Program-made: the position numbers and the translations under genes
Shown: one piece after another, positions 7,820 to 35,210 of the stretch
Layout: each line of letters starts with the position of its first letter
Position numbering within the stretch: position 1 is the stretch's first letter
Notes under the pieces: generated by a model
The model's input: only the letters and a program-made list of their open reading frames with translations
What the model was told of the DNA's origin: nothing
The model's database searches: none
NCBI RefSeq assembly: GCF_944384735.1
Contig: NZ_CALWUN010000021.1
Span: 1-37,457, forward strand
Direction: 5' to 3'
Origin: an uncultured Agathobaculum sp.
GTDB lineage: Bacteria; Bacillota; Clostridia; Oscillospirales; Butyricicoccaceae
Length of the DNA stretch: 37,457 bases

Positions 7820-8860
7820 TCATTCGGCCGCACTCACATGGTAAGCCGTGATGTGGTGATAGGGCTCGCCCGCGCGCAGCACGACGGACGGGAAATCCGC
7901 GTGATGGATGGCATCCGGCCATGCCTGCGTTTCCAGACAGAACGCCGAGCGCGGGCCGTAGCTTGCGCCGCCCTTGCCGGGATAGCCGTCCAGATAGTTG
8001 GCGGTATACAGCTGCAGGCCGGGCTGGGTGGTGTAGCATTCCAATGCCAGCCCGCCGCCGACCGCCTTGGCCACCAGCCCCAGCGGGGATACTGGCTCAT
8101 GCCGCAGCACAAAGTTGTGGTCATAGCCGTTGCCCAGCGTCAGCTGCGGATGCCCCATTGCGATGCCTTGCAGCAGGTCGCGCGACGCGCGCAAGTCGAA
8201 CGCCGTGCCCTCGACCGGGATGAGCGTGCCGGTCGGCGTGCTGTCCGCGTCGGTCTCGGTGATCGCGTCGGCAAAAACCTGCACCTGCTGCCCCTCGAGT
8301 GAACCGGCCGCATGGCCGCACAGGTTGAAATAGCTGTGGTTGGTCAGGTTGCACAGCGTATCGGCGTCGCTCTCGGCCTGATAGTCGATCGCCAGCGTGC
8401 CGTCCTCAATCAGCGAGTAGGTCACCTGTACGCGCAACGTACCGGGGAAGCCCTCCTCCCCGTCCGGGCTGACATGGGTCAGCACCAGCGTGCCGTCCTG
8501 CTCCTGCGCCTGCCAGACCGCGCGGTCGAAGCCGCGCAGGCCGCCGTGCAGGCAGTTCGGGCCATTGTTGGCCGCCAGCGGATAATGCACGCCGTTCAGG
8601 TCGAACGCCGCGCCGCCAATGCGGTTGGCCACGCGCCCGACCAGCGCGCCCAGATACTTGTCCTGCGACTGGTAGGACGCCAGATCGTCGTACCCGAGCA
8701 CGATATCGCGGCTGCCGTCCGGCGCGGGGACGACAAAGCTGCGCAGCACGCCGCCGTAGGTCAGCACCTGTGCGCTGTACGCGCCGGCGCGCAGCGTCCA
8801 CTGGTCGACGGCTATGCCGTCGTCCGTTACGCCAAAGGGCTGTTTCGTCAATTCTGCCAT
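7820..8860 (-). CDS. galM: Aldose 1-epimerase (mutarotase)
   Basis: A 346-residue cytoplasmic enzyme that interconverts alpha and beta anomers of galactose so that galactokinase gets its alpha substrate. Family landmarks are all present: GRVANRI near residue 75, the substrate His in NCLHGG, NLTNHSYFNL with the catalytic His, and the catalytic Glu in FCLETQAWPD near the C-terminus. The length is normal for GalM. It is the last gene of the Leloir operon; its ATG is 3 bases past the galT stop, so translational coupling is likely. Confidence 0.95.
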   Translation of the reverse strand: MAELTKQPFGVTDDGIAVDQWTLRAGAYSAQVLTYGGVLRSFVVPAPDGSRDIVLGYDDLASYQSQDKYLGALVGRVANRIGGAAFDLNGVHYPLAANNGPNCLHGGLRGFDRAVWQAQEQDGTLVLTHVSPDGEEGFPGTLRVQVTYSLIEDGTLAIDYQAESDADTLCNLTNHSYFNLCGHAAGSLEGQQVQVFADAITETDADSTPTGTLIPVEGTAFDLRASRDLLQGIAMGHPQLTLGNGYDHNFVLRHEPVSPLGLVAKAVGGGLALECYTTQPGLQLYTANYLDGYPGKGGASYGPRSAFCLETQAWPDAIHHADFPSVVLRAGEPYHHITAYHVSAAE

Positions 8861-24231: not shown

Positions 24232-24250
24232 GTGATATGACGTGTGTCAT
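24232..24250. promoter_or_regulatory. Crp/Fnr-type operator, site 1 (udp)
   Basis: ATGAC-GTGT-GTCAT (24237-24250), a perfect 5+5 palindrome preceded by GTGATAT. Its centre (24243.5) is 29.5 bases before the -10-like TACACT at 24273-24278, which puts it at about -41.5, the class II activator position. It shares the TGAC-N4-GTCA core, the GTGATAT lead and the same spacing with the site at 25943-25954. Confidence 0.6.
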
Positions 24251-24272
24251 TCCTCCTTGCGCCAAAACGCGG

Positions 24273-24283
24273 TACACTACAAT
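24273..24283 (+). promoter_or_regulatory. -10 region of the udp promoter
   Basis: TACACT (24273-24278) and an overlapping TACAAT (24278-24283) are both usable -10 hexamers. Neither has a good -35, as expected of an activator-dependent promoter. Confidence 0.5.
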
Positions 24284-24320
24284 CAAGTAGAGAGTAAAAA
24301 TTGAAAAGGAGGAAACCATC

Positions 24321-25097
24321 ATGTCATTGGTTTATTCAGACGGCAAGGAATTCCACATTGATCTGCAGAAGGGCGACGTCGGCCGCTACGCGATCCTGCC
24401 GGGCGACCCCGGCCGGTGCGAGAAAATCGCGCAGTATCTGGACAACCCGCGCAAGATCGCGGAAAAGCGCGAATACGTTACCTATGTCGGCGAGCTGTTG
24501 GGTGAAAAGGTCGCCGTCACCTCGACCGGCATCGGCGGCCCGTCCGCCTCGATCGCGATGGAGGAGCTGGTGCACTGCGGCGTGGATACCTTTATCCGTG
24601 TCGGCACGTCGGGCGGCATGCAGCCTGAGGTCTGCGGCGGCGACCTGATCATCGCCACGGGCGCCATCCGTGCCGAGGGCACGACATGCGAGTACGTCCC
24701 GATCGAGTATCCGGCGGTCGCAAACTACGAGGTCGTCAAGGCGCTCGAGGCCGCGGCCAACAAGATGCAGGCGAAGTATCATGTCGGCGTTGTGCAGAGC
24801 AAGGACAACTTCTACGGTCAGCACAGCCCGGAGAGCATGCCCTGCCATGCATGGCTGACCAAGCGCTGGGAGGCGTGGAAGGCCTGCGGCGCGCTCGCGT
24901 CCGAGATGGAGTCGGCCGCGCTGTTCATCACGGCCAGCGTGCGCCGTGTGCGCATGGGCACGGTACTGCTCGTGCTGGCCAACCAGACCCGCCGCGAGAT
25001 GGGCCTGCAGGACGTGGCGGTGTACGACACCGAGCTGGCGGTCAAGACCGCGGTCGCCGGTATCCGCGAACTGATCGAGAGCGACCGGAAGAAATAA
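24321..25097 (+). CDS. udp: Uridine phosphorylase
   Basis: A 258-residue nucleoside phosphorylase family I enzyme that splits uridine with phosphate into uracil and ribose-1-phosphate. Visible landmarks are LPGDPGRCEKIA (phosphate site), TSTGIGGPSASIAMEEL, RVGTSGGMQPEV and the ribose/base-site ASEMESAALF. The length is as for E. coli Udp (253). AAAGGAGGAAACC gives an excellent ribosome site eight bases before the ATG. It stands alone between the feoB stem-loop and its own terminator. The operator before it suggests control by the Crp/Fnr protein encoded opposite. Confidence 0.93.
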   Translation: MSLVYSDGKEFHIDLQKGDVGRYAILPGDPGRCEKIAQYLDNPRKIAEKREYVTYVGELLGEKVAVTSTGIGGPSASIAMEELVHCGVDTFIRVGTSGGMQPEVCGGDLIIATGAIRAEGTTCEYVPIEYPAVANYEVVKALEAAANKMQAKYHVGVVQSKDNFYGQHSPESMPCHAWLTKRWEAWKACGALASEMESAALFITASVRRVRMGTVLLVLANQTRREMGLQDVAVYDTELAVKTAVAGIRELIESDRKK

Positions 25098-25114
25098 TCC
25101 CCCCAAGGCAGCAG

Positions 25115-25153
25115 AAAGCCGCCGCAAACCTTTTGGTTTGCGGCGGCTTTTTT
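25115..25153. terminator. Bidirectional terminator between udp and the Crp/Fnr gene
   Basis: A 16-bp perfect stem (AAAGCCGCCGCAAACC and its complement) with a TTTT loop. Rightward it ends in T6 (25148-25153). Leftward the tract is only TTTC. It separates two convergent genes. Confidence 0.9.
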
Positions 25154-25159
25154 GTCACG

Positions 25160-25837
25160 TCATGGGTTGATCAGCATTTCGCCCGTCGCGATCTTGGCGA
25201 GCGCATCCCGGCTTTCGATGTAATAGCAGTTGGATCGCTTGGATAGGATGTTCAGTGCGCACATCTGCTTGATGATGCGCAGCAGGTGGCGGTAGCTGGT
25301 GTTGAGCGCGTCGGCGCAGTCGGTCATCTGCAGGGTGAACAGGTGGTCGGAGGCGTTGAGCAGGATGAACTGCGCCAGCCGTACCTCGAGCGGGTCGAGC
25401 AGCGTGGTCGAGTAACGCCCCTCGTTGTTCATCTTGCTGGCCAGCATCTCGCAGATGTTACGCACAAAGGTCAGGTCGCCCAGCGGGTCGTTCCGGTACC
25501 GGTTCAGGTTGATGGCGATGCACAGCACGTCCGACATCGCCTTGACGTTGAACTTGAGCGGCTTGCCGAACAGCGAAGACGTCTCGCCGACCAGCGTCTG
25601 GTGCTGGGTGAAGGAGACACAGTTGTTCTTCTCGCTCGAGGTATAGGAAAAGCAGATGGTCTTGCCGCTCATGACGAAAAACAGGTAGTCCGACGGCACG
25701 CCCGCCGTGACCAGATATTCATTGCGTTCAAAGGAGACAAGGTCGGAAATGGCATAGATGTCCAAGGTCATGTACTCCGTCAGCCGCTGCGCCTCGATCA
25801 GCTGCCGTTTCCGGACGAGATTATCCAGTATCTTCAA
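25160..25837 (-). CDS. Crp/Fnr-family transcription regulator (YeiL-like)
   Basis: A protein of about 225 residues with an N-terminal cyclic-nucleotide-binding-type beta-barrel (LVSFERNEYLVTAGVPSDYLFFVMSGK...VGETSSLFG) and a C-terminal winged helix-turn-helix with recognition region LNTSYRHLLRIIKQM. The CRP phosphate-cassette arginine is not apparent, and there is no Fnr-like N-terminal Cys cluster, so the signal is unknown. It resembles E. coli YeiL in this SYRHLLR region. The start is taken as TTG at 25837, seven bases after GGGAG. GTG at 25843 is possible. The frame remains open to 25888, but that codon lies inside the -10 element. It probably activates udp and the hexuronate operon through the two TGAC-N4-GTCA sites. 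Confidence 0.85.
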   Translation of the reverse strand: MKILDNLVRKRQLIEAQRLTEYMTLDIYAISDLVSFERNEYLVTAGVPSDYLFFVMSGKTICFSYTSSEKNNCVSFTQHQTLVGETSSLFGKPLKFNVKAMSDVLCIAINLNRYRNDPLGDLTFVRNICEMLASKMNNEGRYSTTLLDPLEVRLAQFILLNASDHLFTLQMTDCADALNTSYRHLLRIIKQMCALNILSKRSNCYYIESRDALAKIATGEMLINP

Positions 25838-25886
25838 GCCCACCGCTCCCTTTCCCCAAAAATGAAGCGCTTTTGATGATAGAGCC

Positions 25887-25916
25887 ACTATAGCATATTC
25901 ACTACAAAAAAATCAA
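25887..25916 (-). promoter_or_regulatory. Promoter of the Crp/Fnr gene
   Basis: Read leftward: TTGATT (complement of 25911-25916), an 18-base spacer, TATAGT (complement of 25887-25892) with the extended -10 TGC. The TGAC-N4-GTCA site is centred about 68 bases upstream, so autoregulation is possible. Confidence 0.6.
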
Positions 25917-25934
25917 TATATACCGCTTTCGTTT

Positions 25935-25954
25935 GTGATATGTGACACAGGTCA
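25935..25954. promoter_or_regulatory. Crp/Fnr-type operator, site 2 (hexuronate operon)
   Basis: TGAC-ACAG-GTCA at 25943-25954, preceded by GTGATAT as at site 1. Its centre (25948.5) lies 29.5 bases before the -10-like TACATT at 25978-25983, again about -41.5. It sits in the divergent gap between the regulator and the symporter. Confidence 0.6.
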
Positions 25955-25977
25955 TTTTGAGGACGTGTGCAAGATGT

Positions 25978-25983
25978 TACATT
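25978..25983 (+). promoter_or_regulatory. -10 region of the hexuronate operon promoter
   Basis: TACATT, spaced from operator site 2 exactly as TACACT is from site 1. There is no good -35, which fits activator dependence. Transcription would start near 25990, about 36 bases before the symporter ATG. Confidence 0.45.
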
Positions 25984-26025
25984 TAAGGCAGTTCAAGCGC
26001 AAACTTTTTGAAAGGAGCATACAAA

Positions 26026-26783
26026 ATGAGTGGACAAGAGAAAAAGAGAAAAAGAGAAAAGGATTGAGTAAAGCGCTTCGGATTTTTTATGGTGCGGGCG
26101 ACTGCGGCTACACACTTGCCTGTAATGTGGAGACCTACTTCTTCAGCTTCTTCCTGACGAACATGGCCCAGTATTCGATGGGCACGATCTCCGTGCTGAC
26201 AACGGTCATCAGCGTTGTATGCGCGGTGCTCGTCGGCGTTGCGGGCGGCATCATCAACAGCAGCAAGCCGATGAAATGGGGCCGCTACCGCTCGTGGCTG
26301 GTCGTCATCCCGTGGCTGATCCCGCTGATCTACCCGTTCCAGTTCGTCAAGATCGGCGACGGCGTGGTTTCCGGCCTGATCATCATGGCGGCCGCCATCA
26401 TCAGCCACACGCTGTGGCAGTTCCCCTATGGCGCGAGCATCTCGATGATCAGCGTCGCGGGCAAGACGCAGGAGGAGCGCGCGCAGCTGTCCTCGACCCG
26501 CGCGATGTGGAACAGCTTTTCCAAGGTCATCTTCTCGGTGGTCGGCGTGCCGCTGGCTGGCCTGTTCGCCGGCATCCTCGGCACCAAAAACCAGTATGCG
26601 GGCGTGGCGTTCTGCCTCGGCCTTGCCATGGTGATCGGCTACTACGCACATTTCCGCATGTTCGACGGCTATGAAGAAAAGGAGACCGCGAGCACCGCGC
26701 AGAAGGCGCAGTCCAAGGAAAAGACCAGCCTGAAGGACTTGGCCGTTTCCCTGATCCAGAACCCCCGCTGGTCGCGCTGCTGA
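26026..26783 (+). pseudogene. GPH-type sugar/hexuronide:cation symporter, N-terminal part (out of frame)
   Basis: AAAGGAG lies nine bases before the ATG at 26026, but that frame reads only 13 codons (MSGQEKK...) to TGA. From about 26061 the family sequence (GLSKALRIFYGAGDCGYTL, then membrane helices) runs in another frame to a stop at 26783. Between them lie three perfect copies of AGAGAAAA. With two copies the ATG frame would read straight into GLSKALRIF. Proteins of this family import glycosides, pentosides or hexuronides with Na+ or H+, and the operon implies uronates or their oligomers. A second lesion, a C5 run at 26762-26766 one C short, ends this fragment after IQNPRWSRC instead of IQNPPLVALL. 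Translation from another start cannot be excluded. Confidence 0.75.
26037..26060 (+). repeat. Three perfect tandem copies of an octamer in the symporter 5' coding region
   Basis: (AGAGAAAA)x3, beginning four codons after the ATG. Eight is not a multiple of three, so each gain or loss shifts the frame. As read (three copies) the gene is out of frame; with two or five copies it would be in frame. Confidence 0.85.
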
Positions 26784-27406
26784 TCGCCTGCATCGCGCCC
26801 TATGTTTACGTTTTCGTCACCTCCGGCATTGCGATCTACTACTTCGACTACGTCGTCAACCAGAGCGGCATGCTCTCCATTTACATCATGATCTCCAGCT
26901 TCGTCAGCATCCTCGGCTCGTACCTGTGCAAAAAGCTGGTGCGCGCGCTGACCGCCCGCAAGACCTTCCTGTTCGCGCTGCTGTTCATGGCGGCCTGCTC
27001 GGGCGCGGCCTTCCTGCGGTACGAGCACATGTATGAGGTCATCGTACTGATGAGCCTGGTGCAGCTGGGCTTTGGCATCATCATTGCCAGCCAGCCGATG
27101 CTGTACTCCGACGTCATCATCTTCAACGAATGGAAAACCGGCAAGAACGCCGCTGGCTGGATCACCGGCCTGCAGATGGTGCCGCTCAACGTCGGCATCG
27201 TCTCGCGCGGCATCATCATCTCCGCATGCCTGGCGCTGGCCAACTTCGACCCCAACAACGTGCTCGACGTTGTGCCGCCCGAGCTGAAAACCGGCATCTG
27301 CGTGGCCTTTATGATCATCCCCGGCATCGTGCTGCTGGCGGGCGCGCTGATCTTCGGCTTTGGCTTCCGTCTGACCAAGGACAAGGTCGAGCAGCATCTG
27401 CTATGA
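26784..27406 (+). pseudogene. GPH-type symporter, C-terminal part
   Basis: The frame restored by adding one C at 26762-26766 continues LVALLIACIAPYVYVFVTSG, followed by about five more membrane helices, and ends at 27406 (a possible internal start is the ATG at 26870). With the C restored and two octamers instead of three, the gene would encode about 457 residues, the normal length for the family. No ribosome site precedes 26870, so this part is unlikely to be made by itself. It lies upstream of the GH28 gene, with a hairpin between. Confidence 0.75.
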
Positions 27407-27421
27407 TACCATTCGCCATCT

Positions 27422-27450
27422 GAACCCGGCACGGCATCCCCGCCGGGTTC
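27422..27450 (+). terminator. Hairpin between symporter and GH28 genes
   Basis: A 9-bp perfect stem (GAACCCGGC with GCCGGGTTC) is followed only by CATTTG. More likely a message-stability or attenuating hairpin than a full terminator. Confidence 0.4.
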
Positions 27451-27471: not shown

Positions 27472-28827
27472 ATGCAATATTATGTGAAAGATTTCGGCGC
27501 GCAAGGCGACGGCACGGCCAACGACGCCGCTGCCATTCAGGCAGCCATTGACGCTTGCGCGGCGGCGGGCGGCGGACGTGTTGTGCTGGAGAGCGGCCAT
27601 ACCTATTACTCCAGTTCGATCATCCTCAAGCCGGGCGTCGACCTGCATCTGGAGCGCGGCAGCGTGCTCAAGGCGCACAGCGATCTAGAAACCTATTTCC
27701 ATCCAAACGGCGGCGCCAAGGACGACGGCGTCGACCGTGTCGGCACGCCGGTCACGCTCAAGCCGTCCTATGCGTTCATCTACGCCAAGGACGCAGACCA
27801 TATCGCCATCTCGGGTGCGGGCGCGATCGACGGCAACGCCTATGCGTTTGTCGGACGGGTCAGCCAGTATTACGTCACAGGCGACTTTTACCCCCGTCCG
27901 ACGCTGATCTATGTCGAGCACTGCAACCACATTTCCTTTACCGATGTGATCATGCGCAACGCACCGTTCTGGACGCTGCATCCGGCTGGCTGCGACGACG
28001 TGCTGATCTCGCAGATCCGCATCCTCAATGATCTTGATGTCGCCAATTCCGACGGCATCGACCCCGACCATTCCTCGAACGTGCGCATTCTGGGCTGCCA
28101 TATCACCTGCGCGGATGACTGCATCTGCCTGAAATCCTCGGCAGGCAACATGGAATACGGCCCGTGCCGCAATATTGTGATCGCCAACTGCACGCTGACC
28201 TCGACCTCGGCCGCCATCAAGATCGGCACCGAGGGCACGGGTGATTTCGAAAATGTCGTGGTGGATAACTGCGTGATTTCGGATTCCAACCGTGGCCTGT
28301 CCATTCAGATCCGCGACGGCGGTCATGTCAAAAACGTGTCGTTCTCCAACATTATCATCGGTACGCGCCGCTTTGCCGACTGCTGGTGGGGCTGCGCCGA
28401 GCCGATCACGATCACCACGCACAACCGCGATGACAACACCGCCTCCGGCCACATTTCGGGCATCCGTTTCCGCAACATCACCTGCGACAGCGAAAACGGC
28501 GTGCTGCTTTCCGGCCGGGACGACAACCACATCGAGGATGTGCTGTTCGACAATGTGCAGATCACGGTACGCGCCAAAAGCAAATGGGAGCGCGGTTTGT
28601 ACGACCTGCGCCCAGGCATCCGCCAGACCATCGAGCACATCCCGAGTGCGGGCTTCTATATGCGCCGCGCGGATGATGTGACGCTGCGCAACTGCCGTGT
28701 CCGCTTTGCCGGCGGGCAGCTGGACGATTTCGGCGAAGCGGTGCGCTGCGAAGATTGCCAGAATGTCAAGCTCGAGCAGTTTGACGGCAAAGCTGCGCGT
28801 CCCGGTCTGGAAGATATCATCCTCTGA
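27472..28827 (+). CDS. Glycoside hydrolase family 28 protein (cytoplasmic pectin-fragment hydrolase)
   Basis: A 451-residue right-handed parallel beta-helix protein. It opens with the pectinase-type YYVKDFGAQGDGTANDAAAIQ. Of the GH28 catalytic motifs it keeps NSDG (in VANSDGIDPDHS) and the acidic pair in CADDCICLKS. The usual GHG is replaced by SAA in STSAAIKIGTE, so its exact specificity is uncertain. There is no signal peptide, so it should act inside the cell on imported oligogalacturonides or related uronides. GAGGGA is eight bases before the ATG at 27472. Its place before uxaC fits release of free uronic acid for that enzyme. Confidence 0.85.
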   Translation: MQYYVKDFGAQGDGTANDAAAIQAAIDACAAAGGGRVVLESGHTYYSSSIILKPGVDLHLERGSVLKAHSDLETYFHPNGGAKDDGVDRVGTPVTLKPSYAFIYAKDADHIAISGAGAIDGNAYAFVGRVSQYYVTGDFYPRPTLIYVEHCNHISFTDVIMRNAPFWTLHPAGCDDVLISQIRILNDLDVANSDGIDPDHSSNVRILGCHITCADDCICLKSSAGNMEYGPCRNIVIANCTLTSTSAAIKIGTEGTGDFENVVVDNCVISDSNRGLSIQIRDGGHVKNVSFSNIIIGTRRFADCWWGCAEPITITTHNRDDNTASGHISGIRFRNITCDSENGVLLSGRDDNHIEDVLFDNVQITVRAKSKWERGLYDLRPGIRQTIEHIPSAGFYMRRADDVTLRNCRVRFAGGQLDDFGEAVRCEDCQNVKLEQFDGKAARPGLEDIIL

Positions 28828-28858
28828 CCCGCGCCGCACCTGCGAAGGAGAAAGTACG

Positions 28859-30265
28859 ATGAAAACTTTTATCAACGATGATTTTCTGCTGAAAAGCGAG
28901 GCGGCGCGCATCCTTTATCACGAGCATGCGGCCAAAATGCCGATCTTCGACTACCACTGCCACCTCAACCCGCAGGAGATCTATGAGAATGTGCGCTTTG
29001 ACGACATCGCGCACGCATGGCTGGGCGGCGACCACTACAAGTGGCGCGTCATGCGCGCCAACGCAGTGCCCGAGCGCTGCATCACAGGCGACGCGCCCGG
29101 CCGTGAGAAGTTCGGCCGCTTCGCCGAGGTCATGCCCCGCCTGGTCGGCAACCCGATCTACCACTGGTCGCACCTCGAGCTGCTGTGCTTCTTCGGCATC
29201 GACGACCTGCTCGACCCGACGACTGCGGACGCGATCTGGGACAAGGCCAATGCCAAGCTGCAAAGCCCGGCGGGGGCATCGCGTGCCCTCATTCAGCAGA
29301 GCAACGTGCGTGCGCTGTGCACGACCGACGACCCGGCGGACGATCTTCATTGGCACAAGGCGCTCGCGGCGGATGCTTCGTTCGATGTGCGCGTGCTGCC
29401 GACCTTCCGCCCGGAAAAGGCGCTCAACATCGTTGACCCCGGCTATCCCGCCTATCTGGAAAAGCTGGGCGCGGCAGCGGACGTGACCATCCGCACGACC
29501 GACGACCTCAAGCAGGCGCTGGTGCAGCGCATCGCGTTCTTCGCGGACGCGGGCTGCCGCCTGTCCGACCACTCGTTCGGCTCGCCCGACTTCACAGTCT
29601 GGGACGAGGCCGCGGCGGAAGAAGCCATGCGCAAGGCGCTGACGGGCGAGACGCCGACCGATCATGAGGCCGCGGCCTACCAGTCGCTGATGATGGACTT
29701 CCTCGGCGCGCAGTATGCCGACCGCGATTGGGCGATGCAGCTGCACATGGGCGCCATCCGCAACCTGAACACCAAGCTGTACCGCGCGCTCGGCGCGGAC
29801 GTCGGCGGTGACGCCATCGGCGACCCGATCGCGGCCGCGTCGCTGGCCGCCCTGCTCGACCGCATGGCCGCGCGCAACAAACTGCCCAAGACCATCCTGT
29901 ACACGCTCAACGCCGCCGATAACGACAAGCTGATCGCGACCGCAGGCTGTTTCCAGGACGAGACCGCCGCAGGCAAAATCCAGTTCGGCTCGGCCTGGTG
30001 GTTCAACGACCACTATGACGGCATGGTTGCCCAGCTTAAGAGCCTTGCCAACATCGGCGTGCTCAGCCGCTTTGTCGGCATGCTGACCGACTCGCGCTCG
30101 TTCCTGTCCTACCCGCGCCACGAGTACTTCCGCCGCATCCTGTGCAACCTGATCGGCGGCTGGGTCGAGGACGGCATGGCGCCGGCCGATTACGGCCTGC
30201 TCGGCAGCATGGTGGAGGATATCTGCTTCAATAATGTTTGGAAATATATCGGTTTGAATCGATAA
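28859..30265 (+). CDS. uxaC: Glucuronate (uronate) isomerase
   Basis: A 468-residue metal-dependent hydrolase-fold enzyme that converts D-glucuronate to D-fructuronate and D-galacturonate to D-tagaturonate in the cytoplasm. The N-terminal metal motif is FDYHCHLNPQEI. The conserved WRVMRANAVPE, MQLHMGAIRN, SAWWFNDHYDGM and GMLTDSRSFLSYPRHEYFRR are all present, and the length is as for E. coli UxaC (470). GGAG lies seven bases before the ATG. It follows the GH28 gene by 31 bases and precedes uxuA by 19, clearly one operon. Confidence 0.96.
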   Translation: MKTFINDDFLLKSEAARILYHEHAAKMPIFDYHCHLNPQEIYENVRFDDIAHAWLGGDHYKWRVMRANAVPERCITGDAPGREKFGRFAEVMPRLVGNPIYHWSHLELLCFFGIDDLLDPTTADAIWDKANAKLQSPAGASRALIQQSNVRALCTTDDPADDLHWHKALAADASFDVRVLPTFRPEKALNIVDPGYPAYLEKLGAAADVTIRTTDDLKQALVQRIAFFADAGCRLSDHSFGSPDFTVWDEAAAEEAMRKALTGETPTDHEAAAYQSLMMDFLGAQYADRDWAMQLHMGAIRNLNTKLYRALGADVGGDAIGDPIAAASLAALLDRMAARNKLPKTILYTLNAADNDKLIATAGCFQDETAAGKIQFGSAWWFNDHYDGMVAQLKSLANIGVLSRFVGMLTDSRSFLSYPRHEYFRRILCNLIGGWVEDGMAPADYGLLGSMVEDICFNNVWKYIGLNR

Positions 30266-30284
30266 CAAGGAGGAACCCCCCTGT

Positions 30285-31334
<1,050 letters not shown>

Positions 31335-31369
31335 CTTTGATTTTATCAGAACAGAGAGGAAGGATTTCT

Positions 31370-32986
31370 GTGAAACTTTGTCTGGAAGCGATGCAGGATA
31401 AGGCGGCGTGGGAGTCCGTCGGCGTCAAGCTGCCCCAGTTCGACGTAGCCAAGATGCGCGCGCAGACGGCGGAGACCCCGGTTTGGGTGCACTTCGGCGC
31501 GGGCAACATCTTCCGCGGCTTTGTCGCGATGCTGCAGCAGCGCCTGCTGAACGAGGGCGAGGCCACCTGCGGCATCATCGCGGGCGACACCTTCGACTAC
31601 GACATCATCAAGAAGATCTACAAGCCGCACGACGAGCTGACCATGATGGTCGGCCTCAAGCCGGACGGCTCGACCCAGCGCGAGATCGTTGCGTCCATCG
31701 CGGACAGTGTGTGCGCGGACAGCTCGGACGCCGCCGAGATGGAAAAGCTGCGTCAGATCTTCGTCAACCCCTCGCTGCAGATGGTCAGCTTCACGATCAC
31801 CGAAAAGGGCTACGCGCTGCGCAACATCCAGGGCGAGCTGATGCCGGTGGTCGTCGAGGATATGAAGGCCGGCCCGTCCGGCGCGCGCCACGCGATGAGC
31901 ATGGTCGCGGCGCTGATGTACGAGCGCTACAAGGCGGGTGCCTACCCGATCGCGCTGGCCAGCATGGACAACTGCTCGCACAACGGCGAAAAGCTGCGAG
32001 GCAGCGTGCTCGAGGTCGTTGAGGCGTGGCAGCAGAACGGTCTGGTCGACGACGGCTTTGTCGCCTATATGCAGGACGAGAAGCGCGTTGCCTTCCCGTG
32101 GAGCATGATCGACAAGATCACCCCGCGCCCGGCCAAGGAAGTGGAAAACGCGCTGCTGGCAGACGGCATCGAGGATATGGAACCGATCGTCACCAGCCGC
32201 AACACCTTCATCGCGCCGTTTGTCAACGCCGAGATCCCGCAGTATCTGGTCGTGGAGGACAACTTCCCGAACGGCCGTCCGGCGCTCGAAAAGGCGGGCG
32301 TCTATATGACCGACCGCGACACGGTCAACAAGACCGAGCGCATGAAAGTCACCACCTGCTTAAACCCGCTGCACACCGCGCTAGCGGTCTACGGCTGTCT
32401 GCTGGGCTACACCAGCATCGCCGCCGAGATGCAGGACGCCGAACTCAAGGGTCTCATTGAGCGCATCGGCTACGACGAGGGCATGCCGGTCGTGACCGAC
32501 CCGGGCATCATCAAGCCCGCGGACTTCATCGCCGAGGTCGTCGGCCAGCGTTTCCCGAACCCGTTTATCCCGGACACCCCGCAGCGCATCGCGACCGATA
32601 CCTCCCAAAAAATCCCGATCCGCTTTGGCGAGACGATCAAGAGCTACATCGCGTCCGATGAACTGGACGTCAAGAGCCTGACGTTCATCCCGCTCGCCAT
32701 CGCAGGCTGGCTGCGCTACCTGCTCGGCGTGGACGACAAGGGCGAAACGATGGAGGTCTCCTCCGACCCGATGCTCGAAACGCTGCAGCAGCAGCTGGCA
32801 GGCATCGAGTTGGGCAAGCCCGCATCCGTCGGCGACAAGCTGCGCCCGATTTTGTCCAATGAGGCGGTCTTTGCCGCCGATCTGGTCGCCTGCGGCCTTG
32901 CCGACAAGATCGAAGAGATGTTCGGCAAGCTGATCGCCGGCCCGGGCGCGGTGCGCGCCACGCTGCAGGAATACCTGCGCAGCTAA
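31370..32986 (+). CDS. uxuB: Fructuronate reductase / D-mannonate oxidoreductase (mannitol dehydrogenase family)
   Basis: A 538-residue polyol/uronate dehydrogenase of the long-chain mannitol dehydrogenase family. The NAD(H) loop is WVHFGAGNIFRGF near residue 45, and the catalytic region KTERMKVTTCLNPLHTALAVYG carries the conserved Lys, Asn and His. Beside uxuA the best call is reduction of D-fructuronate to D-mannonate. Activity on tagaturonate cannot be excluded by sequence. The start is GTG at 31370 with GAGAGGAAGG upstream; upstream in-frame codons overlap the ribosome site. It follows uxuA by 35 bases. Confidence 0.88.
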   Translation: MKLCLEAMQDKAAWESVGVKLPQFDVAKMRAQTAETPVWVHFGAGNIFRGFVAMLQQRLLNEGEATCGIIAGDTFDYDIIKKIYKPHDELTMMVGLKPDGSTQREIVASIADSVCADSSDAAEMEKLRQIFVNPSLQMVSFTITEKGYALRNIQGELMPVVVEDMKAGPSGARHAMSMVAALMYERYKAGAYPIALASMDNCSHNGEKLRGSVLEVVEAWQQNGLVDDGFVAYMQDEKRVAFPWSMIDKITPRPAKEVENALLADGIEDMEPIVTSRNTFIAPFVNAEIPQYLVVEDNFPNGRPALEKAGVYMTDRDTVNKTERMKVTTCLNPLHTALAVYGCLLGYTSIAAEMQDAELKGLIERIGYDEGMPVVTDPGIIKPADFIAEVVGQRFPNPFIPDTPQRIATDTSQKIPIRFGETIKSYIASDELDVKSLTFIPLAIAGWLRYLLGVDDKGETMEVSSDPMLETLQQQLAGIELGKPASVGDKLRPILSNEAVFAADLVACGLADKIEEMFGKLIAGPGAVRATLQEYLRS

Positions 32987-33166
32987 CTATGCCTCCCCCC
33001 TCCCCCGACCGCGGCCGCATAAGCAGGCCGGGATGAATGCTGTAAAGTGATTGTCCCCGCACGGCTGCAGCTTGCCTGCGGCCAAGGACATTGGCACGGT
33101 CGAACGCACCAGAACCCGTCGCGCAATGGCGCGTTATATTTGAAACACGAAACGGAGAATGCCAAA
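32987..33166. other. 180-base gap between uxuB and eda
   Basis: Begins with a C-rich stretch and a weak 5-bp hairpin (CGGCC...GGCCG near 33012-33030). No T-tract terminator, convincing promoter or coding frame is seen. Read-through from uxuB to eda is plausible. Confidence 0.4.
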
Positions 33167-33811
33167 ATGAATGCAATGGAAAAAAGGGTGCAGGAGATCG
33201 GCGTTGTGCCGGTCATCAAACTTAACCACCCGGAGCGGGACGCCGTCCCGCTGGCCAAGGCGCTGATCGCCGGCGGCGTGCCGATAGCGGAGGTCACGTT
33301 CCGTGCGGCAGGCGCCGCCACCGCCATCCAGCTGATGCGTGAAAATTTCCCGGAGATGCTCGTCGGCGCGGGCACGGTGCTCACCACCGCACAGGTCGAT
33401 GAGGCCGTTGCGGCGGGCGCACAGTTTATCGTCACCCCCGGTATGGATCCTGAAATCGTCGCTTACTGCCAGAAAATCGGCATCCAGATCTTCCCCGGCT
33501 GCACCACCCCGACCGATTATCATACCGCGTACGAGTTTGGCTTGGAAGTGCTCAAGTTCTTCCCCGCCGAGCAGTCCGGCGGCATCGCCAAAATCAAGGC
33601 GATGAGCGCCCCGTTCCCGATGTTCAAAATCATGCCGACCGGCGGCATTTCGCTGAAGAACCTCGCCGACTACGTCAAGAACCCGGTCATCGCGGCCTGC
33701 GGCGGCTCGTACATGGTCACCGCTGACCTGATCGACAACGGCAAGTGGGATGAGATCACCGACCTGTGCCGGCAGTCGGTCGAGATCGTAAAGGCGGCGC
33801 GCAATGGCTGA
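33167..33811 (+). CDS. eda: 2-keto-3-deoxy-6-phosphogluconate (KDPG) aldolase
   Basis: A 214-residue class I aldolase that splits KDPG into pyruvate and glyceraldehyde-3-phosphate. The catalytic Glu is in IAEVTFRAAGA, GAGTVLT follows, the Schiff-base Lys is in EVLKFFPAE, and PTGGIS binds phosphate. The length is standard. CGGAG lies nine bases before the ATG at 33167. It completes the uronate pathway. The next gene starts inside its last codons, so a close functional link with that protein is likely. Confidence 0.95.
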   Translation: MNAMEKRVQEIGVVPVIKLNHPERDAVPLAKALIAGGVPIAEVTFRAAGAATAIQLMRENFPEMLVGAGTVLTTAQVDEAVAAGAQFIVTPGMDPEIVAYCQKIGIQIFPGCTTPTDYHTAYEFGLEVLKFFPAEQSGGIAKIKAMSAPFPMFKIMPTGGISLKNLADYVKNPVIAACGGSYMVTADLIDNGKWDEITDLCRQSVEIVKAARNG

Positions 33812-34148
33812 GTACTCGCTCGCGCACATCGGCATCAACGCTGCCAACGCGGCAGAAGCGCAGCAAGCCGCCGAAATGTTCCAGACGCTGTTCGGCTTTG
33901 CCGTCAAGGAGGGCAGCAGCTCGTTCTTTGCGGGCGACATCGAACTGATGAAGCAGCCGTACATGGGTCGCAACGGCCATATTGCCATCGGCACGCCGGA
34001 TGTCCCGGCCGCCAAGGCCGAACTGGAAGCGCGCGGCTACACCTTCAACGACACCACCGCCAAATTCCGGGCGGATGGTACCCTGAACGCCATCTACCTG
34101 ACCGGTGAGATCTGCGGCTTCGCCATCCATCTGGTCGGCAAGCAGTGA
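33804..34148 (+). CDS. VOC-family (glyoxalase-fold) small protein in the uronate operon
   Basis: A 114-residue single-module vicinal-oxygen-chelate protein. LAHIGINAANAAEAQQAAEMFQ is the typical first beta-alpha unit with its His, then GHIAIGTPDVPAAKAELEARGY forms the second half. Possible metal ligands are the His residues in AHIGI and GHIAIG, plus an acidic residue near the C-terminus. Its ATG overlaps the end of eda by 8 bases and kdgK follows after 36 bases, so it is made with the KDG/KDPG enzymes. Its function is unknown. Possible roles are handling a keto-deoxy sugar acid isomer or detoxifying a reactive aldehyde; neither is shown by the sequence. Confidence 0.8.
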   Translation: MAEYSLAHIGINAANAAEAQQAAEMFQTLFGFAVKEGSSSFFAGDIELMKQPYMGRNGHIAIGTPDVPAAKAELEARGYTFNDTTAKFRADGTLNAIYLTGEICGFAIHLVGKQ

Positions 34149-34184
34149 CCTTCCACCAACCTACGGAACACGGAGGATTTGAAT

Positions 34185-35210
34185 ATGAAAATCGTAACCT
34201 TTGGCGAACTGATGGTCCGTCTCCAGCCGTACAACTATGAGCGCTTCGTGCAGGCTGACCATTTGGAATTTTCCTTTGGCGGCGGCGAAGCCAATGTCGC
34301 CGTCTCGCTGGCAAACTACGGTCTGGACGCGGCGTTTGTCACCAAGCTGCCTGCACATGCGATCGGTCAGGCGGCGGTCAACTCGCTGCGCCGCTACGGC
34401 GTCGACACCAGCATGATCACCCGCGGCGGCGACCGCATCGGCATCTATTACAACGAAAAGGGCGCGTCCCAGCGCGGCTCGGTCTGCATCTATGACCGCG
34501 CGCACTCTGCCATTCAGCAAGCGACCACCGCAGACTTCGACTGGAACAGGATTTTTGAAGGCGTCGACTGGTTCCACTTCACCGGCATCACGCCGGCGCT
34601 CGGCGCCAATGTGGTCGAGATCTGCCGCGAGGCGTGTCAGGCGGCCAAGGCGCATGGCGTTAAAATTTCCTGCGACCTGAACTACCGTGGCAAGCTGTGG
34701 ACGCGCGAACAGGCACGCGAGGCGATGACCGAGCTGTGCCAGTACGTCGACGTCTGCATCTCCAACGAGGAGGACGCCAAGGATGTATTCGGCATCGAGG
34801 CCGAAGCGACCGATATCTACGCAGGCGAGATCAACCGCGAAGGGTACAAGTCGGTTGCCAAACAGCTGGCGGACAAGTTCGGCTTTGAAAAGGTCGCTAT
34901 CACGCTGCGCGAGTCCCACTCTGCATTTGACAATGGCTGGAGCGCCATGCTGTACGACGTGGCTTCCGGCGAGTACTGCTTCTCCAAGAAGTACGACCTG
35001 CACATCATCGACCGCGTCGGCGGCGGCGACTCGTTCGGCGGCGGCCTGATCTACGCCCTGCTGACCGGCAAAAGCACGCAGCAGGCGGTCGAGTTCGCGG
35101 TCGCGGCTTCCGCGCTCAAGCACTCCATCGAGGGTGACTACAACATGGTCACCGTCGCGGAGGTCGAAAAGCTGGCCGGCGGCGACGGCTCGGGCCGTAT
35201 CCAGCGCTGA
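34185..35210 (+). CDS. kdgK: 2-keto-3-deoxygluconate (KDG) kinase
   Basis: A 341-residue PfkB/ribokinase-family sugar kinase that phosphorylates KDG to KDPG with ATP. Features: FGELMVRLQP at the start, FGGGEANVAVSLA near residue 30, the substrate-site SCDLNYRGKLW, and the C-terminal anion-hole/catalytic motif DRVGGGDSFGGG with the catalytic Asp. GGAGG lies eight bases before the ATG at 34185. With UxaC, UxuB, UxuA and Eda it gives a full route from glucuronate to central metabolism. It is the last gene of the operon. Confidence 0.94.
   Translation: MKIVTFGELMVRLQPYNYERFVQADHLEFSFGGGEANVAVSLANYGLDAAFVTKLPAHAIGQAAVNSLRRYGVDTSMITRGGDRIGIYYNEKGASQRGSVCIYDRAHSAIQQATTADFDWNRIFEGVDWFHFTGITPALGANVVEICREACQAAKAHGVKISCDLNYRGKLWTREQAREAMTELCQYVDVCISNEEDAKDVFGIEAEATDIYAGEINREGYKSVAKQLADKFGFEKVAITLRESHSAFDNGWSAMLYDVASGEYCFSKKYDLHIIDRVGGGDSFGGGLIYALLTGKSTQQAVEFAVAASALKHSIEGDYNMVTVAEVEKLAGGDGSGRIQR

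Follow-up and report, generated by a model that had tools for sequence, protein, structure and literature searches.

The window analyzed here is a 37,457-nucleotide stretch of DNA from an uncultured Agathobaculum sp. (contig NZ_CALWUN010000021.1; the genome assembly is 83% complete and comprises 94 contigs), and we investigated two palindromic sites in it that lie on either side of a Crp/Fnr-type regulator gene. From left to right, the genes around these sites are a FeoB-like gene, which we take to be such from inspection by eye, followed by udp, the Crp/Fnr gene, a GPH-type symporter gene, and a run of uronate genes. The udp gene (24321-25097, plus strand) encodes a uridine phosphorylase (TIGR01718, 342.3 bits versus a cutoff of 280.3) and is the second copy in the genome; the other copy (G000:C3:18104-18850) is 58% identical to it, and the udp genes of congeners are equally distant, at 57-60% identity. 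The regulator gene (25160-25837, minus strand) encodes a YeiL-like protein with an Arg-type recognition helix, SYRHLLR, as judged from its PF00027 and NF007707 matches and from alignments. The symporter gene (26027-27406, plus strand; MFS_2 type) has a frame that is broken twice, as seen in its translations and in a PF13347 match that comes in two pieces. An intact counterpart of this frame is the open 461-amino-acid homologue at L244:10832-12217, and one of the breaks falls at a short 8-bp repeat close to the start of the gene.

Operator 1, TATGACGTGTGTCATT (24236-24251, plus strand), lies 5′ of udp, and operator 2, TGTGACACAGGTCATT (25941-25956, plus strand), lies 5′ of the symporter gene. 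An earlier note on this DNA had placed a TGAC-N4-GTCA palindrome at each position and ascribed identical promoter geometry to the two; the sequence confirms both palindromes, with exact cores at 24238-24249 and 25943-25954, as well as the geometry. Indeed, the udp −10 hexamer TACACT (24273-24278, plus strand) begins 29 bases past the center of operator 1, and the symporter hexamer TACATT (25978-25983), which forms part of the extended −10 element TGTTACATT (25975-25983, plus strand; extended element TGT), begins 29 bases past the center of operator 2. Moreover, a consensus promoter scan showed no two-hexamer promoter at either −10, in agreement with the note's remark that a good −35 is missing. 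If the TAnnnT hexamers span −12 to −7, the palindrome centers fall at −41.5, and transcription would be predicted to start near 24285 for udp and near 25990 for the symporter gene. The regulator's own −10, TATAGT (25892-25887, minus strand), has TTGATT 18 bp upstream (a consensus match of 9 of 12), and operator 2 lies ∼68 bp from the start predicted for it, as the note had said, such that this operator may serve the regulator's promoter as well.

The exact core occurs four times in the window, against 0.47 expected, and none of 100 shuffles reached four; the remaining two cores reside within coding sequence, one at 8470 and the other at 26197 inside the symporter gene. By order-1 resampling, an exact core would appear in both intergenic regions by chance in ∼0.12% of cases. 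Across the genome there are 67 exact cores, and among the 33 distinct ones that were checked for spacing (all 29 with an A flank, plus four others), only the two in the window have a TAnnnT box at 29 or 30 bp. Three further cores of the genome (L066, L068, and L077) were marked as intergenic by a crude open reading frame (ORF) pick; none of them has TAnnnT at 29/30 bp, and the DNA around them has a GC content of 0.60-0.72. The same pick labels operator 2 as coding, owing to a GTG-started ORF at 25935. Furthermore, a scoring matrix built from relatives alone (50 TGAC-type sites, the window contributing none) ranked operator 1 first in the window (17.56) and operator 2 second (13.35), followed by a score of 4.4 that overlaps operator 2 and then by 0.24.

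The regulator passes the cutoff for the cyclic nucleotide-binding domain PF00027 (41.6 versus 27.5 bits), whereas its Crp-type helix-turn-helix domain scores just under the cutoff for PF13545 (26.8 versus 27 bits), with a helix that aligns with those of CRP and FNR. Its sole NCBIfam match is YeiL (NF007707), at 136.4 bits and below the cutoff of 180, and by these profile scores it is a YeiL-like relative rather than YeiL proper. A search of solved structures returned CRP and other Crp/Fnr proteins, with none named YeiL among the best 60 of 115 matches. Among 149 relatives, a search for the regulator matched just one, the window's own genome; it matched 21 of 391 genomes of the class and 5 of 394 of the order, with the own genome counted in each. 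Scanning genome contigs with the single protein yielded zero relatives; with an alignment of 24 members as the query, 310 stretches were matched, 284 of which encode relatives, and the best 80 loci were kept for the family counts given below. Tyr182, Arg183, and His184 are invariant across the 24 aligned members, and the variable residue of the recognition helix aligns with Arg185 of CRP.

Within 400 bp upstream of the regulator, [GT]GAC-N4-GTC[AC] was present at 48 of the 80 loci, mostly as TGACATATGTCA, where mononucleotide shuffles predict 0.6. All 48 of these loci are Arg-type, and 25 of the remaining 32 encode YRHLLY in place of YRHLLR. A motif-free count of four-base half-sites gave the same division: TGAC ranked first at Arg-type loci, 35 of 50 of which have it within 300 bp (the next half-site reached 9), and TGAG ranked first at Tyr-type loci (23 of 25; the next reached 4). 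In a tree built from the 80 loci without L120, to which the window, its closest module carrier G758, and Escherichia coli YeiL were added (82 rows), [GT]GAC-N4-GTC[AC] accompanied 50 of 52 Arg rows and TGAG-N4-CTCA accompanied 24 of 26 Tyr rows. Neither site was found for the other two Arg and two Tyr rows, one of the latter (L110) having just 90 bases of upstream sequence, nor for two His rows and one Phe row, and one further Phe row had the G-type site. The Arg and Tyr rows stand on opposite sides of one branch (support 100/98), which implies one evolutionary change and not many. The window regulator falls in the Arg-type clade, with both the YRHxxR helix and the [GT]GAC-N4-GTC[AC] site upstream.

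The promoter spacing is likewise a property of the family. On the divergent side of the 50 TGAC-type sites (from 48 loci), TAnnnT stands 29 or 30 bases from the center in 48 cases (4.8 expected) and the extended form TGnTAnnnT in 43 (0.3 expected); for the 25 TGAG sites (23 Tyr-type loci, one Phe-type locus, and one locus with an unread helix), the figures are 24 (1.4 expected) and 10, respectively. On the regulator side, TAnnnT stands at this distance at 9 of 50 TGAC-type sites (4.4 expected) and 3 of 25 TGAG sites (1.5 expected). The divergent spacing supports a class II activator, as the note had proposed, and the operator, spacing, and recognition helix shared among relatives argue that the sites belong to the intervening Crp/Fnr gene. 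A GTGATAT lead that the note saw before both palindromes is present at both, but its distance from the core is 2 bp shorter in site 1 than in site 2, its GTG reads AAG before udp in G758, and it is largely the AT-rich flank that is common around the core throughout the regulator family.

G758, a genome of the same order but a different family, carries udp, the regulator, and the symporter gene in the same arrangement, at identities of 88%, 78%, and 89%, respectively, and there the symporter has an open frame of 461 amino acids. Its sites are TGACATAGGTCA 5′ of udp and TGACACAGGTCA 5′ of the symporter gene; both −10s are kept at identical spacing, including the udp element GGTACACT, and a 26-base block around operator 2 is identical in the two genomes. 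A search of G758 for UxaC gave no match, whereas 7 of the 14 genomes used as controls gave one. Beyond the 3′ end of the G758 symporter gene are genes for a metallophosphoesterase (PF00149) and for PHP-type and MgtC-like proteins (the latter two named by eye), followed by a PF01676 protein, presumably phosphopentomutase-like, and a cytidine deaminase (PF00383). Because G758 is without a UxaC match and has nucleoside-salvage genes downstream of the module, we assign the symporter to the nucleoside side and no longer to the uronate side. The note had treated the second unit as a hexuronate operon, an assignment that is not supported, the symporter accompanying udp and the regulator in G758.

The uronate genes of the window (27472-35210, plus strand; assigned by profile matches and relatives) encode GH28, UxaC, UxuA, a mannitol-dehydrogenase-family oxidoreductase that is fructuronate/tagaturonate reductase-like, KDPG aldolase, and a 2-keto-3-deoxygluconate kinase-like protein. 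They are probably resident and lie outside the udp-regulator-symporter module. Of 80 genomes searched for UxaC, 38 gave a match, that of the window included, and the surroundings of uxaC were examined in 16 other genomes (14 of the same genus and two of the same family; 3.6-8.5 kb each). In these stretches uxaC is mostly accompanied by uxuA, and no relatives of udp, the regulator, or the symporter were found, which speaks against the note's proposal that one regulator ties nucleoside salvage to uronate catabolism. In three of the 16, GH28 (92-94% identity) lies immediately 5′ of uxaC; the gene that ends ahead of GH28 there looks by eye like an ABC permease, and a GC-rich hairpin with T after it also precedes GH28. 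Two of the 16 have a single TGACGCTTGTCA core 1.3 kb 5′ of GH28 and hence away from its promoter. Conversely, the ORFs of the 80 homologue loci contained no UxaC, UxuA, or GH28 match, and one sugar-kinase match at 24% (L114). Across the 80 loci, the 16 relatives, and G758, there is thus no conserved link of the site or the regulator with uronate genes. In Konateibacter and Candidatus Galacturonibacter (L138 and L168), the same operator core stands 5′ of a DMT-type gene, and the flanking ORFs included no relatives of the window's uronate genes.

The simplest reading of this arrangement is that the module was inserted 5′ of a resident uronate operon, or took the place of a transporter there. Transcription that begins at the symporter promoter may run on into the uronate genes. 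The gap between the symporter gene and GH28 is 65 bp and contains no terminator-like site, one such site being present shortly before the end of the symporter gene (27346-27358). A GC-rich inverted repeat without a T-run (27423-27449) lies between the two genes and could weaken read-through, and a promoter-like match before GH28 (27378-27407, 9 of 12) could serve GH28 alone, such matches being near chance level.

Taken together, we consider it likely that this locus holds a pyrimidine-nucleoside module that has moved horizontally, with a YeiL-like class II activator acting on both outward promoters. Such a module would consist of the uridine phosphorylase, the activator, and the GPH-type symporter, which is taken to import nucleoside on the strength of its gene company alone. 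A dimer of the activator would occupy TGAC-N4-GTCA centered at −41.5 of both outward promoters, each with a −10 and no usable −35, and would there recruit RNA polymerase in class II fashion. Through the operator near the symporter gene, it could act on its own promoter as well. The module would have landed directly 5′ of the uronate operon, perhaps giving some read-through into it.

Several observations weigh against this interpretation. The binding, the activation, the transcription starts, the substrate of the symporter, the effector, and the insertion event are all deduced from sequence; the Arg/Tyr switch is a single event in the tree, so that the counts are not independent; and the matrix sites were themselves chosen by the core pattern. 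The two breaks in the symporter frame may reflect decay, slippage, or an assembly error. Moreover, the neighbors of most family members are not nucleoside genes: 41 of 50 Arg-type loci are divergent to a YdcZ-type DMT gene (one Pfam-checked), the commonest divergent neighbor over the 80 loci and confined to Arg-type ones, and 17 of 25 Tyr-type loci face a methyltransferase cluster (one member Pfam-checked), which is divergent in 18 loci overall. Symporter homologues of 38-52% identity, at eight loci in six of the eight other matching genomes, lack neighbors related to udp, deoB, or cdd. For some, though not necessarily all, YeiL-like regulators, a nucleoside role is plausible: rihB and nupX adjoin E. 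coli yeiL, a nucleoside hydrolase gene (IU_nuc_hydro) adjoins a Secundilactobacillus member, and in Blautia schinkii and an Eubacteriales metagenome-assembled genome (L133 and L172), an ADP-ribosylglycohydrolase and PnrA-like operon is divergent, with udp (∼60% identical) ∼2 kb away. The udp genes of these last two have no such site directly upstream. Beside udp, both also carry another Crp/Fnr gene, distinct from the first; upstream of it stands GGACACATGTCC (L133:8474 and L172:8326), 29 bp from a TAnnnT box, which suggests a possible regulator cascade.

The co-occurrence of motif and regulator that the note had proposed to check, evident upstream of the regulator at the homologue loci, is weak at the level of whole genomes, the exact 12-mer TGACATATGTCA being found in 10 of 20 other carriers yet also in 79 of 370 noncarriers. 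This is partly because tandem pairs of TGACATATGTCA beside other genes occur without the regulator. Such pairs, 38-39 bp apart, were seen at L180, L186, L188, and L192, in genomes without a regulator match; the genes nearby are presumably DUF134-like in three of the four, one of these loci also has an Mrp-like neighbor, and another regulator may use the sequence there. Nor is the sequence exclusive to this regulator, as TGACATATGTCA is the core of a CRP consensus in the portion of PMC4655474 considered here.

This last point, together with the TGTGAC that forms half of site 2, would suit a different reading, in which another Crp/Fnr protein of the genome binds both sites. Three further cyclic nucleotide-binding proteins are encoded, two of which (on C14 and C8) have a CRP-like helix by eye, and TTGACnnnnGTCAA is a predicted HcpR-type motif in the part of PMC1274295 considered. 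We nevertheless find this highly improbable: no TGTGA box is present in site 1 or in the right half of site 2, and the sites flank the YeiL-like regulator and accompany it in G758. Furthermore, 46 other udp genes were located in relatives, and none of the 29 examined has the exact core in the stretch ahead of it (up to 400 bp). That the palindromes arose by chance is very unlikely, to the point of being negligible, given their conservation in G758, the −10 spacing, and the matrix ranking, even with 67 exact cores in the genome and 29 of 34 locus rows called coding by the crude ORF pick.

Two other alternatives accept the sites and differ in what they do. In one, the symporter is a hexuronate transporter heading the uronate operon, and uridine salvage and uronate catabolism answer jointly to a single regulator. 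The tandem arrangement across 65 bp with no terminator-like site within, and a GPH family name that also covers hexuronide transporters, would fit this, but we judge it unlikely in view of the 89%-identical symporter in G758 without a UxaC match, the 16 uxaC stretches without the module, the 80 homologue loci without UxaC, UxuA, or GH28 matches, and the interrupted symporter frame. In the other, the protein is a repressor that blocks the promoters at −41.5 until an inducer comes. The site overlaps the −35 region, and a protein bound there can also block polymerase. This is quite unlikely, as no consensus promoter was listed at either −10, the extended −10 is strongly conserved in relatives, and the annotation of E. 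coli YeiL is that of an activator, all of which fits activator dependence without proving it. We retain the horizontally moved nucleoside module, governed by a class II activator, as the preferred account.

A broader proposal, on which our judgment is evenly balanced, is that YeiL-type regulators from Clostridia to E. coli would constitute a single family, in which the class II divergent promoter is fixed and the operator follows a two-letter code, with Arg at CRP position 185 pairing with C, and Tyr with G, at base 4 of the half-site; that several of them would control nucleoside salvage; and that, in the window genome, the insertion would have brought a uronate operon under the control of a nucleoside regulator. 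While a local Crp/Fnr class II activator is a known kind of mechanism, the comparison adds an operator and a spacing that hold across the YeiL-type family, one residue-base pairing, and a prediction of target, site, and direction for E. coli YeiL. It also cautions against misannotation, as the symporter beside the uronate genes is probably no uronate transporter.

Among known systems, class II CRP/FNR promoters resemble those of the window in having a two-fold site near −41.5 (a position that is itself deduced here) and no consensus −35, but the TGAC half-sites of the window have AT-rich flanks, rather than TGTGA. CRP contacts the phosphate of cAMP through Arg82 and Ser83. In our alignment, the regulator residues at these positions are not Arg-Ser, unlike in a cAMP-responsive CRP, and the cysteine cluster of FNR is not kept. 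HcpR1-type regulators share the predicted core TTGACnnnnGTCAA, which the part of PMC1274295 considered reports for delta-proteobacteria and two cyanobacteria, but differ in their targets (hcp, norB, and others) and in their specificity positions, 180 and 181 versus 185 here; residues 180, 181, and 185 all contact DNA according to the same source, with base correlations given for 180 and 181. Another of the closest known systems is E. coli YeiL, which a 2000 paper reportedly described as the third CRP-FNR member of that organism. It has one regulated gene in RegulonDB according to the portion of PMC9308461 considered, and no YeiL operator sequence is described in the portions of the literature examined, subscription papers being outside this scope. 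YeiL shares the helix core SYRHLL with the window regulator, and the palindrome again lies between the regulator gene and a divergent nucleoside gene, but the two proteins are 27% identical and differ at CRP position 185 (Tyr versus Arg) and in their operators (TGAG-N4-CTCA versus TGAC-N4-GTCA). In the rihB-yeiL intergenic region of E. coli K-12 (L179:7188-7355), TGAGAAATCTCA has TGTTAAGAT 30 bp away on the rihB side, with TAAGAT starting 30 bp from the palindrome center in the rihB direction. We predict from this layout that the two elements constitute a YeiL-activated rihB promoter and, if the broader proposal is true, that the orphan regulator YeiL would activate rihB through TGAGAAATCTCA, just as the window regulator would activate udp and the symporter gene through its two operators.

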